A stretch of DNA of 64,000 nucleotides, taken from Fibrobacter sp. UWP2 (GTDB taxonomy: Bacteria > Fibrobacterota > Fibrobacteria > Fibrobacterales > Fibrobacteraceae). Below are positions 8,422-57,434 of this stretch, one piece after another. The position numbers and the translations under genes are program-made. The notes under the pieces were generated by a model. It was not told the DNA's origin and ran no database searches. It saw only the letters and a list, made by a program, of their open reading frames with translations. Position 1 is the first letter of the stretch; each line of letters opens with the position of its first letter. The stretch is taken from contig NZ_FQYM01000003.1 in NCBI RefSeq assembly GCF_900141705.1, positions 62,001-126,000 of the forward strand. Direction: 5' to 3'.

Positions 8422-8603
8422 CGTTCGCTCCTTCCGCCTACAAGCATAAAAAGGCAGGACTTTTTGTTATTGGTGTTCTTTTGTGCACTACAAATATAAA
8501 CTTTCCTGGGGCGGATGTCAAGAGATTTTCGGAAAATTTCGCATTTTTCTCATGGACGGATGTGGCTGTCATCTTTTGCCATTCCAAAAATCTATATTGC
8601 GGT
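8422..8603. other. Spacer between the YhcG-type gene and RNA element copy 1
   Basis: This stretch holds the ribosome site and promoter region of the minus-strand nuclease (to about 8500) and, at its right end, a -10-like TATATT (8593-8598) just ahead of the RNA element. I see no reading frame worth calling. Confidence 0.5.
8593..8598 (+). promoter_or_regulatory. -10-like box ahead of RNA element copy 1
   Basis: TATATT ends five bases before the conserved RNA block begins at 8604, the distance expected between a -10 box and a transcription start. Copy 2 has TACTAT (10391-10396) in a comparable place. No convincing -35 box at standard spacing. Confidence 0.45.
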
Positions 8604-8811
8604 TGACATAGCCCCGTACCGAATGGTTCGGAGCGACCGGAAATTTTGAGATTCGTCTCTTATTCTCGAACCTGAAACTACCACTTTCAAACCATACGAG
8701 AGTAAGACGGACGCTCACGTCCCATTAGGTGCGTGGGTCGTTTGTGCTTATTGTATGGTAGGGTGTGGTAGCCCGCAGGTTCGGTAAGTGCATACGACAC
8801 CACGCTTTTTT
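8604..8811 (+). ncRNA. Structured RNA element, copy 1 (family not recognised)
   Basis: The first 63 bases (8604-8666) are identical to 10406-10468 and contain two hairpins, CCGAA-TGG-TTCGG and GAGA-TTCG-TCTC. Next comes a long irregular hairpin: CGAACCTG (8667-8674) with CAGGTTCG (8776-8783); CTACCAC (8678-8684) with GTGGTAG (8765-8771); ACCATAC (8691-8697) with GTATGGT (8753-8759); AGTAAG with CTTATT; ACGGAC with GTTTGT; and an apical CACGTCCC/GGTGCGTG around ATTA. The 3' segment CGAC-A-CCACGC (8795-8805) can instead pair with GCGTGGGTCG (8731-8740) and is followed by six T residues. Compared with copy 2, eight pairs in the outer stems change on both sides and stay paired. I read this as an RNA of about 205 nt with its own start and terminator, or a leader of the operon beginning at 8918. 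Confidence 0.85.
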
Positions 8812-8860
8812 GTTCCTAAAAATAATGTGTGGCAAGTTGCGAATAAGGGCCGATTCCCTG

Positions 8861-8885
8861 TTCACAACTATGGGCCAGTTGTGAA
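8861..8885. promoter_or_regulatory. Perfect 9-bp inverted repeat upstream of the DUF4417 operon
   Basis: TTCACAACT (8861-8869) and AGTTGTGAA (8877-8885) flank a 7-base spacer. It lies 32 bases before the small reading frame at 8918 and is not followed by a T-run, so an operator or a leader hairpin is more likely than a terminator. Confidence 0.5.
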
Positions 8886-8917
8886 TATGGAAAATATGGC
8901 CTAAACAAGGACGATTT

Positions 8918-9055
8918 ATGAAAATCAAGAATCTATATGAACTAGCTCTCTTGTTGAGAGCTAAACTAAAAATGGCGAAATGGCCATTTAACCGATACGG
9001 TTTTCCCGTATTTCCTAGGGAGGTCATTCTTGAAGAACCTCCTGCACTTCATTGA
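8918..9055 (+). CDS. Small reading frame (45 aa), probably the N-terminal piece of the DUF4417 protein in another frame
   Basis: ATG at 8918 has AAGGA seven bases upstream, so translation is plausible. The peptide starts MKIKNLYELALLL and ends GFPVFPREVILEEPPALH. From memory of the family, complete DUF4417 proteins begin with a stretch like GFPxxPRExxLxEEP just before the part encoded from 9030. The frame shifts relative to the downstream gene, with a 26-base overlap (9030-9055). Either the gene is split by a frameshift, or ribosomes shift or re-initiate here. The Shine-Dalgarno-like AGGGAGG at 9017-9023 inside this frame favours re-initiation at TTG 9030. Confidence 0.5.
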   Translation: MKIKNLYELALLLRAKLKMAKWPFNRYGFPVFPREVILEEPPALH

Positions 9056-9593
9056 ACCCATTCAAAGGATTCGTTGTTGCAAAAATCCGAAAGAGACTTT
9101 GCTCTGTTCTTTTGCCGATGATAAATTCATTCGGAGACGGTTGCAAAATCTATTTGATGAAATTGGCCTGTATCGGAATTACTATGGCTTTGGTGGTTTT
9201 GACTTGAGTCCACGGATTAATTGGCCACTTCAAAAGCAAAAATTCAACATTTGGCTTTCGCAGTTGGCTACAGCTTTTGTTGCTCTGTCAGGACAAAAGA
9301 TTCTTCCGAATTTCCGGGTGGGTTGTTTGCAGACTTTGTATGTGCTTGAATCATATCCGAAAAACATTCCTTATATTATTGGTACGTTAGGTTGTGCTAA
9401 ACGCTATAATCCTTTGCATGACTACATTTTTAAAGCGAAAATGTTAATTGCGAGACCGTCTTTTTTGATGATTTATGGAAGATTGAGGGGCGAATATGAA
9501 GAAATGCTTGAAAAATTAGACGTTCCTTACATGGTGGTTTCAGATTATAGAACTCGCTGTTACAAAGAATCTTTAGAAAGGAGTGCCGCATAA
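9030..9593 (+). CDS. DUF4417-family protein (main part)
   Basis: 187 residues from TTG at 9030, which has a very good ribosome site (AGGGAGG, six bases upstream). The family signature is clear: YGFGGFDLSPRINW, then FNIWLSQLATAFVALSG, ILPNFRVG and a GTLGCAKR segment. DUF4417 proteins are common on phages and mobile elements; their activity is unknown to me. The N-terminal part of the domain seems to lie in the overlapping frame at 8918-9055. The stop overlaps the ATG of the next gene by one base, so three genes (9030-10368) are translationally coupled. Base composition is A+T-rich compared with the genes outside the island, which suggests transfer. Confidence 0.75.
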   Translation: MKNLLHFIEPIQRIRCCKNPKETLLCSFADDKFIRRRLQNLFDEIGLYRNYYGFGGFDLSPRINWPLQKQKFNIWLSQLATAFVALSGQKILPNFRVGCLQTLYVLESYPKNIPYIIGTLGCAKRYNPLHDYIFKAKMLIARPSFLMIYGRLRGEYEEMLEKLDVPYMVVSDYRTRCYKESLERSAA

Positions 9594-10012
9594 TGGATTC
9601 CAAAGATACATACTCTAAATCTGTTCAAGAACAAAAAGATCTTGCTCAGATAAATGCTGATTTAATGAAGAATATTGTGCAAGGCAAGAACAGAAGTCTC
9701 GAGCATTCTGAAAAATGGATGTCTGTAAATATTAACGATATCGTAAATCAGTTTGCGCCTGGAGCACAGGCGGAAGTTCAAGGCAATAAAGTTGAATGGC
9801 GCGACAAAGAAGGTAAAGTCTCCATTGTGGCTGATATTGGGGGCGGGTATTTGCGTATTCAAGATTTGTCGAAACCCTTTAGAGCGTATTTTGACTTGAA
9901 GGGCGAGAGTGTCAATAACTATATTGATGCAAAAGGAAAGCAACATGGACGTCCTAAGGCGGAACGAGAGGCTCTGACCCACTTTAGGATAAAATACAGG
10001 AGCGAAATGTAA
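9593..10012 (+). CDS. Small basic protein resembling the C-terminal module of polymorphic toxins
   Basis: 139 residues, coupled to the DUF4417 gene (TAATG) and to the next gene (TAATG). The N-terminal half is a polar helix (MDSKDTYSKSVQEQKDLAQ). The C-terminal half reads as beta strands with VADIGGGYLRIQDL, a YIDAKG turn, and an ending THFRIKYRSEM. That Gly-Tyr-Leu-Arg ... Asp-Gly/Lys-Gly ... THF-(K/R)-I-K order recalls C-terminal toxin modules of contact-dependent systems, but I cannot name the family and see no catalytic residues I trust. The acidic protein that follows would fit as an immunity partner. An unrelated phage-type function is equally possible. Confidence 0.45.
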   Translation: MDSKDTYSKSVQEQKDLAQINADLMKNIVQGKNRSLEHSEKWMSVNINDIVNQFAPGAQAEVQGNKVEWRDKEGKVSIVADIGGGYLRIQDLSKPFRAYFDLKGESVNNYIDAKGKQHGRPKAEREALTHFRIKYRSEM

Positions 10013-10368
10013 TGGAACAGCATGAAATAATCCTTGTCCCCAAGCGGAATTTTGACGAGAATACGGACTGCTGGCAATCTTACGCTAATAGCGGAGAGTT
10101 TGACGATTTCGTTCAGTGGTGGCTGAAACTCCCGGAAAATGAAACTTTGTGGGATGTCTATATGGCTTTTAACGAAACGTTGGACTTGCTCATTGATCAC
10201 TATGAGGATGAGGAGATTCCTGCCGAAAAAGTGGATGCTGCAATAAACATTGCAGATACATTTCGGGAAAAGAAAACAGGTGAATTGGAAAAAATGGCTT
10301 TTGACAAGTTGATGCAGGCTTTAACAAAAGCTAAAGAACTCGGTCAACCGGTCTATTTCTGGTTCTAA
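10012..10368 (+). CDS. Small acidic protein, possible immunity partner
   Basis: 118 residues, strongly acidic (HYEDEEIPAEKVDAA), predicted mostly helical, with several tryptophans near the N-terminus (CWQSYAN, VQWWLKL). No signal peptide or membrane segment. It is the last gene of the coupled trio and ends 37 bases before RNA element copy 2. Small size, acidity and coupling to a basic toxin-like protein are typical of immunity proteins, but I recognise no family. Confidence 0.5.
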   Translation: MEQHEIILVPKRNFDENTDCWQSYANSGEFDDFVQWWLKLPENETLWDVYMAFNETLDLLIDHYEDEEIPAEKVDAAINIADTFREKKTGELEKMAFDKLMQALTKAKELGQPVYFWF

Positions 10369-10390
10369 TTGTCATTTCTCCTTGTTTTTT

Positions 10391-10396
10391 TACTAT
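10391..10396 (+). promoter_or_regulatory. -10-like box ahead of RNA element copy 2
   Basis: TACTAT, with TTGTCA sixteen bases upstream (starting at 10369) as a plausible -35. The conserved RNA block begins nine bases downstream at 10406. Confidence 0.45.
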
Positions 10397-10405
10397 CATT
10401 CCCCA

Positions 10406-10615
10406 TGACATAGCCCCGTACCGAATGGTTCGGAGCGACCGGAAATTTTGAGATTCGTCTCTTATTCTTGGCTCTAAAACTACCACTTTTAAGTCGTACG
10501 AGAATAAGACGAACGCTCACGTCCCAATCGGGGCGTGGGTTGTTTGTGCTTATTGTACGACAGGGTGTGGTAGCCCTTAGAGCCAGTAAGTGCTTGCAAC
10601 TCCACGCCTTTTTTT
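10406..10615 (+). ncRNA. Structured RNA element, copy 2
   Basis: Bases 10406-10468 are identical to copy 1. The long hairpin is rebuilt from different sequence: TGGCTCTAA (10469-10477) with TTAGAGCCA (10577-10585), and GTCGTAC (10493-10499) with GTACGAC (10555-10561), while the CTACCAC/GTGGTAG pair is unchanged. The apical stem CACGTCCC/GGGGCGTG is better paired than in copy 1. The terminator-type pairing is GGCGTGGGTTG (10532-10542) with CAAC-T-CCACGCC (10597-10608), then seven T residues (10609-10615). It sits 53 bases upstream of the restriction-modification gene, as copy 1 sits upstream of the DUF4417 operon. Confidence 0.85.
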
Positions 10616-10668
10616 ATTTGTGGAAATTGCGGCAAACAAGGAACGGCTCTCGCAACGTTGGAGCCGCC

Positions 10669-13600
10669 ATGGTCGATTTGGACAAGAGCAAGATTCAAGC
10701 CGTCGCACAGTACATCGACGAGGTCTCCAAGCAATTTTCTACGGGCAAGGCGACCGAACACAGTTACCGCCCTGCACTCGCGAAACTCCTTGGCGACTTG
10801 CTCCCCAAATTCACCATCACCAACGAACCGAGCCGAATCCAGTGCGGAGCGCCGGACTACATTATCGCGAAAGGGAAAGGCGCAACATCGATTCCGGTTG
10901 CGTTCGTAGAGGCAAAGGACATCGGCGATAGCGACCTGGATGGAAACCGCCAGCACAAGGAACAGTTCAACCGTTACAAGAACTCCCTAGACCATATCCT
11001 TTTCACAGATTACCTTGATTTCCATGCTTATGAAAACGGGATGCCAACTCAAAACATCCGCATTGCAGAAATCAAAGGGAACAAAATTGCGCTGATTGAT
11101 GCCAATGTCCCGATGTTTTTGGAAATGGTGGCGCACATTGCGGAATCAACACCGCAGAAGATTACAAGTTCTACAAAGCTGGCGCAGATGATGGCGGCCA
11201 AGGCGCGCCTCCTTGCCGAAGTGATAGAAAAAACTCTTGAAACCGATAGCGAGAAGACGGGCGAACTGGCGGGGCAATGGAAATCTTTTCAGAGAGTCTT
11301 GATTCACGATTTGACAGAACGTCAATTTGCAGACATTTATGCACAGACAATTTGCTATGGAATGTTTGCGGCAAGGCTCCATGACGACACTCCTGACACG
11401 TTCAGTCGAGAAGAAGCGGCGACACTCATTCCCAAGACAAATCCGTTCTTGCGCAAGGTTTTCCAGAATGTTGCCGCATTCGATGTAGATACAAGCATCG
11501 CATGGATTGTAGATGACCTGGCAGAAACATTCCGGGTGACGGACATGCCGAAGGTCATGAAGAATTTTGGAAAGGCTACGGGTCAAGCCGACCCCATGAT
11601 TCACTTCTACGAAGATTTTCTGCGCTATTACGACCCCAAGCAGAAAAAGGCCTGTGGTGTTTATTACACGCCAGAACCTGTTGTTTATTTTATCGTCAAT
11701 GCTGTCGATGAAATTCTGAAAACGCGCTTTGGTTTGAGCGATGGTCTCGCTGACACGAGTAAGGTGACGATTCGGCAGACTTCGAATCTGTATACGGACA
11801 ATCGCACCAAAGACCACAAGAAATACGAAACGCGAGAATACCATAAAGTTCAGATTCTCGACCCGGCAACCGGAACGGGAACATTCCTTGCCGAAGTGGT
11901 TCGCAAGATATATTCCGGTATGGAAAACCAAAAGGGCGCTTGGCAAAATTATGTGGAAGAACATCTGCTGCCGCGCCTGAACGGTTTTGAATTCATGATG
12001 GCTCCATACGCCGTTGCGCATTTGAAATTGGACATGGTGCTGGCGCAGACAGGCTACAAGGCAAGACAGGACAAACGACTTCGCATATTCCTTACCAATT
12101 CCCTTGAAGAATGTGACCACGACACGGGGACATTGTTTGCACAATGGCTTGCGCAAGAAGCGAACGAGGCAAACCTTGTCAAACGCGATACACCCGTAAT
12201 GGTAATGATTGGTAATCCGCCGTATAGCAATAGTAGTTCTAATAAAAGTAAATGGATTTTGGACCTTCTGAAAATATATAAACAAAATCTAAATGAGAAA
12301 AAAATAAATCTTGATGATGATTATATTAAATTCATTCGTTTAGGGCAACACTATGTAGAAAAGAATGGTGAAGGAATTCTTGCCTATATTTCAAACAACA
12401 GTTTCATTGATGGAATAACGCATCGGCAAATGAGACATTCATTGATGGATACTTTTGATGAAATCTACATTCTTGATTTACATGGAAGCCAAAAGAAGGG
12501 TGAAACTATTCAAAAAAATGACGAGAATGTCTTTGATATTACTTTAGGCGTAAGCATTAATATCTTTGTTAAGAGAAAACAGAGTGTCATCCTGAACGAT
12601 GCCCGCAAGGGCGAAGTCGAAGGATCTCTAGCCAGAGTATATCACTACGAGCTCTTCGGCAAACGCTATGAAAAATATGCATTTTTGACCAAAACATCGT
12701 TCAGCGATATTCCTTGGAAAGAACTTTCTCCACACACACCGCAATTTTTCTTTGTACCTAAAGATTTTTCTGTGCAGGAAGAATATAAAAAGGGGTTTAA
12801 ATTATCTGAATTAATAATTAACTATAATTCAGGTGTTCAAACAAAAAGAGATTATTTGAATATTTTTTATCAAAAAAAAGATGCTGATTCTTTGAAGAAT
12901 GATTTTGTTAATATGCCTATTCAAGAATTACAAAAAAAGTATCATGTGAAAGATGGAAGAGATTGGCAACTTGACTTGGCTAAAAATGATTTAATAAAAA
13001 ATAAAGTTCTAACGAATGAAATTGATTATAGACCATTTGACATTAGGTTTACAAATTACACTGGAAAAACAAAAGGGATAATGGGTTATCCAAGATATAA
13101 AACAAACTTTAATATTATTCAAAAAGAAAATATTTCTCTTGTTATATGTCGACAATTAAGTACGTTTGATTTTCAACATATTTTTGTGACGACGCATATT
13201 TCGGATTTAAATTCTATATCTTTGCAGTCAAAGGAACAGTCTTACGTTTTCCCGCTCTACCTTTACCCAACAGAAAGTGAAGAAAAGCTCGGCGAAACAC
13301 GCAAGCCCAATCTAGACGAAAAAATTTGGCACAAAATAGACAAGTGTGCAAAACTCAAAACAACTCCAGAGCAAGTCTTCGATTACATCTACGGCGTTCT
13401 CCACACTCCATCCTATCGTGAAAAATATAAGGAATTCCTTAAAATTGATTTTCCGCGAATTCCTTATCCCGAAAACAAGGAAGATTTTGAACGCATCGTT
13501 TCCATCGGCAACAAGCTCCGCAAATTGCACTTGATGGAAGAAATTCCTCCGCAGACAACCTCCTTCGACATCGAAGGCGACAATGCCGTAAGCGAAATTC

Positions 13601-13860
13601 GGTTTGAAAGGGAGATCCCCGACCAAGTCGGGGATGACAACTACGGCAAAGTTTTTATTAACAAGCAGCAATATTTCGGCAACGTCCCTGAACTAGCCTG
13701 GAACTTCTACATCGGTGGCTACCAACCCGCCCAGAAGTGGCTCAAGGACCGCAAGAACCGCACCCTTACCTTCGACGACATCTCGCATTACCGCAAAATC
13801 ATCGCCATCCTTATCGAAACTCACAAGTTGATGCAGAATCTTGATGAAATTGCGGGATAA
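10669..13860 (+). CDS. Single-chain restriction-modification enzyme (type IIG / type ISP-like)
   Basis: 1063 residues from ATG 10669, preceded by TTGGAG; the frame is open further upstream but that part overlaps RNA element copy 2. Order: an N-terminal nuclease domain with a PD-(D/E)XK pattern (GAPDYII about 60-66, then VEAK about 81-84); a helical linker; an N6-adenine methyltransferase with SAM motif LDPATGTGTF (about 396) and catalytic NPPY (516-519); a variable A+T-rich target-recognition region (about 525-870); and a C-terminal domain like the specificity domain of type ISP enzymes (about 870-1063, FGNVPELAWNFYIGGYQPAQ). No helicase motor is seen, unlike LlaBIII-type enzymes. It would methylate and cut its own site. 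Two short palindromic elements sit in frame (about residues 639-653 and 982-990). Confidence 0.85.
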   Translation: MVDLDKSKIQAVAQYIDEVSKQFSTGKATEHSYRPALAKLLGDLLPKFTITNEPSRIQCGAPDYIIAKGKGATSIPVAFVEAKDIGDSDLDGNRQHKEQFNRYKNSLDHILFTDYLDFHAYENGMPTQNIRIAEIKGNKIALIDANVPMFLEMVAHIAESTPQKITSSTKLAQMMAAKARLLAEVIEKTLETDSEKTGELAGQWKSFQRVLIHDLTERQFADIYAQTICYGMFAARLHDDTPDTFSREEAATLIPKTNPFLRKVFQNVAAFDVDTSIAWIVDDLAETFRVTDMPKVMKNFGKATGQADPMIHFYEDFLRYYDPKQKKACGVYYTPEPVVYFIVNAVDEILKTRFGLSDGLADTSKVTIRQTSNLYTDNRTKDHKKYETREYHKVQILDPATGTGTFLAEVVRKIYSGMENQKGAWQNYVEEHLLPRLNGFEFMMAPYAVAHLKLDMVLAQTGYKARQDKRLRIFLTNSLEECDHDTGTLFAQWLAQEANEANLVKRDTPVMVMIGNPPYSNSSSNKSKWILDLLKIYKQNLNEKKINLDDDYIKFIRLGQHYVEKNGEGILAYISNNSFIDGITHRQMRHSLMDTFDEIYILDLHGSQKKGETIQKNDENVFDITLGVSINIFVKRKQSVILNDARKGEVEGSLARVYHYELFGKRYEKYAFLTKTSFSDIPWKELSPHTPQFFFVPKDFSVQEEYKKGFKLSELIINYNSGVQTKRDYLNIFYQKKDADSLKNDFVNMPIQELQKKYHVKDGRDWQLDLAKNDLIKNKVLTNEIDYRPFDIRFTNYTGKTKGIMGYPRYKTNFNIIQKENISLVICRQLSTFDFQHIFVTTHISDLNSISLQSKEQSYVFPLYLYPTESEEKLGETRKPNLDEKIWHKIDKCAKLKTTPEQVFDYIYGVLHTPSYREKYKEFLKIDFPRIPYPENKEDFERIVSIGNKLRKLHLMEEIPPQTTSFDIEGDNAVSEIRFEREIPDQVGDDNYGKVFINKQQYFGNVPELAWNFYIGGYQPAQKWLKDRKNRTLTFDDISHYRKIIAILIETHKLMQNLDEIAG
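12585..12627. repeat. In-frame palindromic element inside the restriction-modification gene
   Basis: This stretch begins GTCATCCTGAACGA, has a GCCC-GCAA-GGGC hairpin in the middle, and ends TCGAAGGATCT. It resembles dispersed GTCATCCTGA...GGATC repeats of many bacteria. It is GC-rich inside an A+T-rich region and adds about 14 residues without breaking the frame. Confidence 0.5.
13612..13638. repeat. Second in-frame palindrome, sister of the element at 57404-57429
   Basis: ATCCCCGAC (13615-13623) and GTCGGGGAT (13627-13635) form a perfect 9-bp stem around CAA. The same arms occur at 57407-57427, where the palindrome has a T-run and acts like a terminator. Here it encodes residues such as EIPDQVGDD in frame. 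Confidence 0.7.
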
Positions 13861-55866: not shown

Positions 55867-56622
55867 ATGATGCGATTGAATATACGTGGATTGATTTTTT
55901 TGATTGGCGCGGTTCTTGTCGCAGGGACGTTTGCCCGGCCCATCAACGACGGGAATAAGCTTTTTGCCGCCGGAGATTACGAAGGCGCCCTCAAAAAGTA
56001 CATGGAGGCCCGCGAGGCAGAACCCGCGAACCCCATGCTCTTCTACAACATTGGAACTTGCCAGTACAAGCTGGGCAACTTTGAAGAGGCCAAAAAGGAG
56101 TTGGAGAGTGCCGTGCGTATGCCCGACAAGAAGATGGCCGCGAAGGCCGCCTACAACCTGGCGAACACGCATTTCCGCATGGGCGAGAAGGCCGCCGAAG
56201 GCAGCGAACGCATTGCGGCCTGGCGTGAGTCGGTTGCTTATTTGAAAAAGGCCATCGACCTCGACAACAATTTCGAGAACGCGAAGAAGAATGTGGAAAT
56301 TGTCCAGCGCAAGCTGAAGGAAGAACTCGACAAGCAGAAAGAGAACAAGGACCAGAATCAGGACCAGAACAACGACCAGAAACAGCCGCCGCTTTCCGAG
56401 AAGGCGAAGGAGGTTCTGGCGCGCGCATTGCAACTTTGCAAGGACGGCAAGTATGCCGAAGCGAAGGAGATGCTCGAGAACCTGATTGCCGAAGACGAGA
56501 CTGCGGGCCAGCTGAGCGGCCACGTGCAGCGCATCGACGACGTCATCGAAATCAAGGCGGGCCGCAAGCCCAAGGCGAAGATTGACGCCAGCAACACCGA
56601 CAACGACCTGGAGGTAATCTGA
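55867..56622 (+). CDS. TPR protein of the Bat (aerotolerance) type
   Basis: 251 residues with an N-terminal signal or anchor (about 1-22). TPRs at about 28-160 (NDGNKLFAAGDYEGALKKYM, PMLFYNIGTCQYKLGNFEEA, AAYNLANTHFRMGEKA), a charged linker with a short NQDQN run, then a helical end. TATATTTTG near 55831 could be its promoter. One-base overlap with the next gene, a related protein; the pair resembles BatC/BatE of Bacteroidota and spirochaetes, but the VWA partners BatA/BatB are absent here. Confidence 0.72.
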   Translation: MMRLNIRGLIFLIGAVLVAGTFARPINDGNKLFAAGDYEGALKKYMEAREAEPANPMLFYNIGTCQYKLGNFEEAKKELESAVRMPDKKMAAKAAYNLANTHFRMGEKAAEGSERIAAWRESVAYLKKAIDLDNNFENAKKNVEIVQRKLKEELDKQKENKDQNQDQNNDQKQPPLSEKAKEVLARALQLCKDGKYAEAKEMLENLIAEDETAGQLSGHVQRIDDVIEIKAGRKPKAKIDASNTDNDLEVI

Positions 56623-57290
56623 TGAAAAAGATTATGCTTACAGTCGCGGTGATGTTCCTTGCGGTGGCAGCCTTTGCGGCGCCCAAGTCGGCGAGCGCTT
56701 ACTACAGCGATGCCGCCTTCCAGTACATCGAGAACCGTCTGCCGTCTGCAGAAATCACCTGCAACGAGGGCCTGCAATACTACCCGAACGACCAAAAGTT
56801 GCAAATGCTCCTTGACCGCATTAAAGAGGCCAAGGACGAGCAGAAGAACGAGAACAAGAAGAACGACAAGAACCAGGATAACAACCAGGACCAGAATCAG
56901 GATCAGAACCAAGATCAGAATCAGGACCAAAATAAGGACCAGCAGAACCAGGACCAGAACGGCGATGGCAATTCCAGCGGGTCCGAGAGTTCTTCGAGCC
57001 AGGGCGATGACCAGAATCAAGACCAGCAGGGCGGCGGCCAGTCCAGCAGCAGCCAGGGCGGTGAAAGTTCCGACAGCAATGGCGGGCAGCAGCCCGAGCC
57101 GCAACCCGAACAACCGCAGGAAAATTCCAGCGACAGCCAGGGCGAAGAACCCCAGGAACAGCCCGTGCAGATGGGTGAGATGACTCCCGAAGAGGCGGCG
57201 CAGCTCCTGAAGGACTTTGACGAGCAGAACGGCGAACGCAAACCCTGGAAACCTATCCGCGGGCAGGCTAGGCCGGCCAAAGACTGGTAA
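56622..57290 (+). CDS. BatC-like TPR protein with long Asn/Gln/Asp low-complexity linker
   Basis: 222 residues, signal peptide 1-19. One or two TPR-like helices (YYSDAAFQYIENRLPSAEI), then a low-complexity stretch (about 68-185) dominated by repeated NQDQ units and Ser/Gln/Gly runs, then a helix MTPEEAAQLLKDFDEQNGE and ...KDW at the end. The terminal helix is like that of BatC. The repeat DNA (imperfect 12-mers such as CAGGACCAGAAT) is prone to length change. It probably binds partners in the periplasm. Confidence 0.72.
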   Translation: MKKIMLTVAVMFLAVAAFAAPKSASAYYSDAAFQYIENRLPSAEITCNEGLQYYPNDQKLQMLLDRIKEAKDEQKNENKKNDKNQDNNQDQNQDQNQDQNQDQNKDQQNQDQNGDGNSSGSESSSSQGDDQNQDQQGGGQSSSSQGGESSDSNGGQQPEPQPEQPQENSSDSQGEEPQEQPVQMGEMTPEEAAQLLKDFDEQNGERKPWKPIRGQARPAKDW

Positions 57291-57385: not shown

Positions 57386-57403
57386 CGAAATCGACCTCAG
57401 TAT

Positions 57404-57434
57404 GTCATCCCCGACCTGGTCGGGGATCTTTTTT
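57404..57434 (+). terminator. Palindromic repeat acting as terminator
   Basis: ATCCCCGAC (57407-57415) and GTCGGGGAT (57419-57427) form a 9-bp stem around CTG, followed by C and six T residues. The same arms are found in reverse orientation inside the restriction-modification gene (13615-13635). Confidence 0.8.

Follow-up and report, generated by a model that had tools for sequence, protein, structure and literature searches.

The window analysed here, a 64,000 nt stretch of the genome of Fibrobacter sp. UWP2, carries on its + strand two copies of a structured RNA of about 205 bases (copy 1, 8606-8811; copy 2, 10408-10614), both members of one multicopy family. It is almost certain that the family represents a conserved, structured leader RNA. 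It has two alternative folds that share one strand, and we judge it likely that the leader acts in cis, controlling the next gene by transcription attenuation, with restriction-modification (R-M) genes, which serve in phage defence, as its main targets in Fibrobacter. It would thus be a switch that probably turns R-M genes on and off.

Results

A leader RNA present in many copies

The two copies lie at an offset of +1802 and share 86% identity over 208 nt. Upstream of copy 1, a -10-like box (TATATT, 8593-8598) can be read from the sequence, a TA-rich box typical of the copies, and the predicted transcript runs from 8606 to the T-run. For copy 2, the box is TACTAT (10391-10396), within the arrangement TTGTCA-16-TACTAT (10369-10396). 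Folding of the whole leader was better than that of 200 out of 200 shuffled sequences in each case, with z-scores of -4.33 (copy 1) and -5.28 (copy 2).

When copy 1 was used as a BLAST query, 36 of the 61 genomes searched contained relatives, all 36 being of the genus Fibrobacter. A covariance model built from 33 copies, R1, matched 79 of 80 Fibrobacter genomes, with 1 to 17 copies per genome. Ten copies were found in the Fibrobacter sp. UWP2 genome, and those of the window score 185.1 bits (copy 1) and 182.7 bits (copy 2). The BLAST result suggested an element confined to the genus, which proved incorrect, as other Fibrobacteraceae and Bacteroidota are also matched by covariance models and a pattern scan. 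The loci that we fetched contain 117 copies, among which 109 distinct ones were used for covariation.

An ACATAG-like start is present in 106 of the 117 copies, and in 103 of these 106 a TA-rich box is found just 5' of it, at a near-fixed spacing. The hairpin that follows the start (8611-8634 in copy 1) is exchangeable between copies, differing sequences giving the same small hairpin. At the other end, a T-run is found in nearly all copies. Some copies of the Fibrobacter sp. UWP2 genome (L074-L078) are variants in which the hairpin apex bears an additional long arm, of tens of nt.

The possibility of a mainly phage-borne element was rejected, INPHARED giving no match and IMG/VR no match with the Fibrobacter pattern. 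A single IMG/VR contig matched the Bacteroidota pattern; there, a Bacteroidota-type copy (L344, 10540-10760) is placed 5' of a lipoprotein gene, and the contig may come from a host whose DNA was binned as viral. Among plasmid records, the element was present in one, from Phocaeicola. Two model matches on the antisense strand (L321, L325) correspond to the palindromic reverse complement, and were excluded.

No Rfam family was recognised in the window at gathering score (Rfam 15, 4227 models), nor did any family match the element in the Bacteroidota copies, where one unrelated tRNA was the only hit. Two matches at relaxed threshold, Phe_leader (copy 2 only, 20.7 bits against a cut-off of 55) and a Tetrahymena snoRNA, were at chance level and were discarded. 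Other repeats are present in the window. The segments 13613-13639 and 57403-57429 form a 27-nt inverted-repeat pair, 96% complementary, each being nearly palindromic (GATCCCCGACC...GTCGGGGAT), which looks like a dispersed short repeat. At 56320-56960, 12-nt repeats lie in coding sequence and are rich in codons for Asn, Asp and Gln.

Two mutually exclusive folds

Four segments, s1 to s4, account for the two folds. In fold A, s2 (8697-8719 in copy 1, 10499-10521 in copy 2) pairs with s3 (8731-8753; 10533-10555) to form the apex of one long hairpin, closed by three stems: P1 (8667-8674 with 8776-8783), P2 (CTACCAC, 8678-8684, with 8765-8771) and P3 (8692-8699 with 8751-8758). In fold B, s1 (8657-8668; 10459-10470) pairs with s2, and s3 pairs with s4 (8782-8805; 10584-10608, with the T-run next). 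This last helix, of about 21 bp, has a GC-rich base and abuts the T-run, TTTTTT at 8806-8811 in copy 1. At the 5' edge of s1, fold predictions give a small hairpin, GAGA-UUCG-UCUC (8648-8659), of which covarying variants such as GAGU/ACUC exist. In copy 2, s1 and s2 are supported by the R1 match and by covariation, and s3 by the covariation of both folds.

Among the 109 distinct copies, 97.6% of cells are paired in fold A, with 28 pairs changed on both sides, and 93.1% in fold B, with 15 pairs changed on both sides against a shuffle mean of 7.8. None of 500 shuffles reached the observed level for either fold, and sliding the partner strand by 1 to 3 columns lowered pairing to 33-55%. Because the alignment was fitted to fold A only, it does not favour the fold B count. 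Taken by helix, s3 is paired with s2 in 98.3% of cells and with s4 in 94-96%, and s1 with s2 in 90%, with 6 pairs changed on both sides. The closing stems P1-P3 vary from copy to copy, yet they covary: 8 of the 9 P1 pairs have changed on both sides, P2 is 99.4% paired and exists in three alternative sequence types, and P3 is likewise a covariation helix.

The original prediction held that GCGTGGGTCG (8731-8740) can pair either with the apical 5' arm CACGTCCC (8716-8723) or with CGACACCACGC (8795-8805), just before the T-run. These positions are correct, and so are the corresponding strands of copy 2, GGCGTGGGTTG (10532-10542) and CAACTCCACGCC, which ends at 10608 and is followed by the T-run. 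The change from GTCG/CGAC to GTTG/CAAC between the two copies, proposed as compensatory, is real, and more such changes occur in further copies. At one tetramer pair of s3:s4, U-A is found in 93 copies, C-G in 9, U-G in 6 and another combination in 1; at the next tetramer pair, the counts are 100 C-G, 5 U-G and 4 U-A (109 distinct copies in both cases). Further along, A-U is replaced by G-C in seven copies. Loss of the 3' pairing in additional copies would have refuted the proposal; the outer ten s3:s4 pairs are instead kept in 99-100% of cells. The analysis also extends the prediction: the 3' pairing is longer, joining 8731-8753 to 8782-8805 by about 21 pairs, s1 was added as a partner of s2, and the element is a multicopy leader whose commonest Fibrobacter targets are R-M genes.

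Duplex energies agree with the s3:s4 pairing. The best duplex between the 3' 24-mer and the rest of the leader was -31.5 kcal/mol for copy 1 and -29.0 kcal/mol for copy 2, and none of 1000 dinucleotide shuffles was as good, in either copy. The own s3:s4 duplex was stronger than the mean cross-copy duplex for 86 of 109 Fibrobacter copies and 33 of 35 Bacteroidota copies, the pairing being kept between the phyla despite differing sequences.

Since both folds use s3, they are mutually exclusive, and very likely they are true alternatives. A switch resembling an attenuator or, as the other option, a pseudoknot had been envisaged at first. The switch is supported, both folds covarying while sharing s3. 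The pseudoknot, in which the 3' tail would pair while the long hairpin stays intact, was rejected on geometry, and we give it virtually no credit: s3:s4 needs the very s3 bases engaged in s2:s3, so that the two cannot coexist. Inside s2:s3, 107 of 109 copies share a conserved U-G wobble, the corresponding pair of s3:s4 being G-C. We infer that this fits a selection keeping fold A weak, or displaceable.

Wobble pairs also bear on the nature of the folding molecule. G-U cells are far commoner than A-C cells, by 657:33 (fold A) and 422:18 (fold B), which is what folding of the + strand as RNA would produce. The excess does not by itself exclude a single DNA strand. The element might indeed be a DNA site for recombination or insertion, attC-like or at the boundary of a mobile cassette, and act as a folded single strand. 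Copies are found between blocks of accessory genes, some of them arranged in tandem, and modules have been shuffled from copy to copy. In L017 (G006:C170:44632-44843), for example, the P1 halves derive from distinct copy types, a sign that leaders may have recombined. However, a DNA site would account poorly for a conserved promoter-like box, a T-run placed exactly at the helix end, a consistent 5' position on the same strand and the conservation of two exclusive folds. We therefore regard it as very improbable, even if G-U tolerance does not fully exclude it.

Energies and direction of the switch

Because the T-run touches only the s3:s4 helix, fold B was taken as the terminator and fold A as the antiterminator. 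Judged by sequence alone, s3:s4 qualifies as an intrinsic terminator, being a GC-rich hairpin directly followed by a U-run. When each fold was forced, median energies were -69.5 kcal/mol for fold A and -59.8 kcal/mol for fold B, B being lower in 7 of 109 copies. In copy 1, the values were closer (-64.8 versus -60.9 kcal/mol). The minimum-energy structure of the full-length leader was fold B for copy 1 and fold A for copy 2.

The following sequence of events can be proposed for attenuation. RNA polymerase would start at the -10-like box, and s1 would be made first, then s2. In the OFF state, s1 would hold s2, leaving s3 free to form s3:s4 with U6 next to it, and transcription would stop before the gene. 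In the ON state, a free s2 would pair with s3 and P1-P3 would close beneath, so that s4 would remain unpaired, the T-run would lack its hairpin, and polymerase would read through. As fold A is usually the more stable one at full length, the OFF state would require a signal that stabilises s1:s2 or blocks s2, or else be a kinetic outcome. Candidates for the signal would be a protein, a metabolite, an RNA acting in trans or the speed of transcription. Termination, the order of events, the default state and the signal-set choice are all inferred, in the absence of transcript, 3'-end or probing data.

Some observations speak against attenuation. Fold A is about 10 kcal/mol more stable in most copies, so that the terminator might rarely form. 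Typical terminators are also compact, whereas the loop here is long, with about 28 nt and an inner hairpin in addition. An alternative is that the element is a constitutive partial terminator, or acts on translation or processing, the folds tuning a fixed level or operating at the start codon without any sensed signal. Consistent with this, no leader peptide was found, nor any known ligand-binding family, and start codons of Bacteroidota copies are often no more than about 6-20 nt from the T-run, where the fold could affect ribosome entry. In Fibrobacter, however, the gene usually starts 30-120 nt past the T-run, and a fixed terminator would not require conserved wobbles together with four exclusive segments. 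This alternative appears unlikely, and a signal-controlled attenuator remains our preferred reading.

Genes located downstream of the leader

For 105 of 113 copies, the leader shares its strand with the next gene (counting genes of at least 100 aa), which mostly lies 4-124 nt 3' of the T-run. The orientation of the upstream gene is mixed (64 divergent, 45 parallel). Genes for R-M systems or DNA methyltransferases make up 58 of 99 downstream targets, versus 2 of 91 upstream neighbours, with labels spread from Pfam-scanned members through BLAST clusters. When 40 non-redundant targets were analysed with Pfam one by one, 27 were DNA methyltransferases or R-M enzymes, and two more were SNF2 helicases like those of defence systems. 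The R-M targets belong to types I, II, IIG/MmeI, III and ISP. About 40% of Fibrobacter targets were not recognised as R-M; the remaining targets include an 800-aa family, a TPR protein family, DUF4417-like operons and lipoproteins.

This arrangement weighs on another explanation, that of a stand-alone small RNA of about 205 nt, acting in trans and merely sited before genes. It would have its own promoter and terminator, in keeping with the promoter-like box at one end and the terminator at the other, and the copies within one genome are alike. Such an RNA would not be expected to have a close downstream gene on the same strand so regularly, nor one target class so strongly enriched, and since each copy has its own P1 and P3, no shared antisense seed exists there. 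We hold it to be improbable, less so than a DNA site, and retain the cis-acting leader.

As for the window itself, a DUF4417-like operon follows copy 1, and the gene after copy 2 encodes a type ISP R-M enzyme (10669-13860, + strand; Pfam Type_ISP_C 9.7e-78, and N6_Mtase). The first gene after copy 1 (8918-9593, + strand) matches Pfam DUF4417 weakly, and the match reaches 1.2e-37 in another leader-linked gene (L087). Comparison with intact relatives of 224 aa places a frameshift near residue 44 of the Fibrobacter sp. UWP2 gene, which could reflect phase variation, a pseudogene or an error in sequencing. Two further genes of the operon, encoding 139 and 118 aa (9593-10368, + strand), have no family match, and most of the eight loci that contain this gene family show the same order.

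A block made of a leader, the DUF4417-like gene and the 139 aa and 118 aa genes, then a second leader with a different target, was observed in seven genomes (window 8604-13860, L082, L085, L087, L093, L097, L108). The targets of the second leader are ISP, EcoRI-type, type III or unknown genes, as if cassettes had been swapped behind the leader. A similar, diverged block is found at L177.

Relatives in Bacteroidota

A pattern scan of GTDB contigs detected the element in records of Fibrobacter, Prevotella and other Bacteroidales. Most Bacteroidales copies look endogenous rather than contaminating, as they have a consensus of their own. A broader model, R2, found it in 90 of 121 genomes of the family of one Prevotella record, and in 19 of 198 genomes drawn across the phylum of that record; the filters used lose weak matches.

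Read by eye, a signal peptide or lipoprotein signal opens many of the Bacteroidaceae targets, which start some 6-26 nt 3' of the T-run, and the targets there are apparently secreted-protein genes. Six Bacteroidaceae copies (L306, L307, L309, L317, L319, L320) are directly 5' of a small HTH-like protein starting with MVHIG or MIHIG, a context that thus recurs.

With about 40% of Fibrobacter targets outside R-M, and Bacteroidaceae targets that look different, no single signal follows from gene function. A broader proposal, which we put forward only tentatively and hold somewhat less probable than not, is that of an attenuator class spanning the phyla Fibrobacterota and Bacteroidota, with one conserved four-segment switch, stems acting as a private barcode for each copy and a common, unknown signal. 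Such a module would be portable and would serve to control accessory genes that have been acquired: in Fibrobacter, those for R-M and other defence functions, and in Bacteroidaceae, those for secreted proteins.

Discussion

In the literature, we found neither an attenuator leader for R-M genes nor a description of a Fibrobacter leader RNA. An automated survey of structured-RNA candidates from human microbiomes and gut bacteria (PMC8040213) may include an unnamed Bacteroidota member; from the part of that survey available to us, a prior listing as an unnamed candidate is not excluded.

It has long been asked how the balance between restriction enzymes and methyltransferases is kept, above all upon arrival of a new R-M system, and the answers so far are mostly protein regulators. 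If the attenuator proposed here is confirmed, a single RNA switch serving unrelated R-M types across a genus would amount to a level of control new to these systems, and would point to one signal acting on many defence systems at once. As gut Bacteroidaceae have the fold too, it can be tested in strains amenable to genetics.

The closest known architecture is that of the trp, his and phe leaders (Rfam Phe_leader, RF01859), in which 1:2 and 3:4 helices, the latter a terminator with its U-run, oppose a 2:3 antiterminator, 5' of the controlled gene. The exclusive 1:2 plus 3:4 versus 2:3 helices are met here, as is the U-run directly after 3:4. The Fibrobacter leader differs by its sequence, by the additional stems P1-P3 closing the 2:3 hairpin and by its R-M targets. 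A translated leader peptide was not supported, no reading frame being conserved; among the 244 short frames of 106 copies, only 5 are preceded by a Shine-Dalgarno-like site. Targets in amino-acid biosynthesis or tRNA synthetase genes were not found either, the genes being R-M, other defence-like, unknown or lipoprotein ones. As both of these features were tested and not met, we did not class the element as a trp-type attenuator.

The 5' leaders of riboswitches and protein-responsive attenuators likewise contain a terminator and an antiterminator helix that exclude each other, whereas our element has no Rfam match and no separate aptamer is apparent. With intrinsic (Rho-independent) terminators, it shares a GC-rich helix followed by U6, but its loop is large and an upstream partner competes for the helix. 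Finally, R-M systems are known to be controlled mostly by DNA-binding C proteins and in some cases by antisense RNA; the likeness to these would be that R-M gene expression is regulated.
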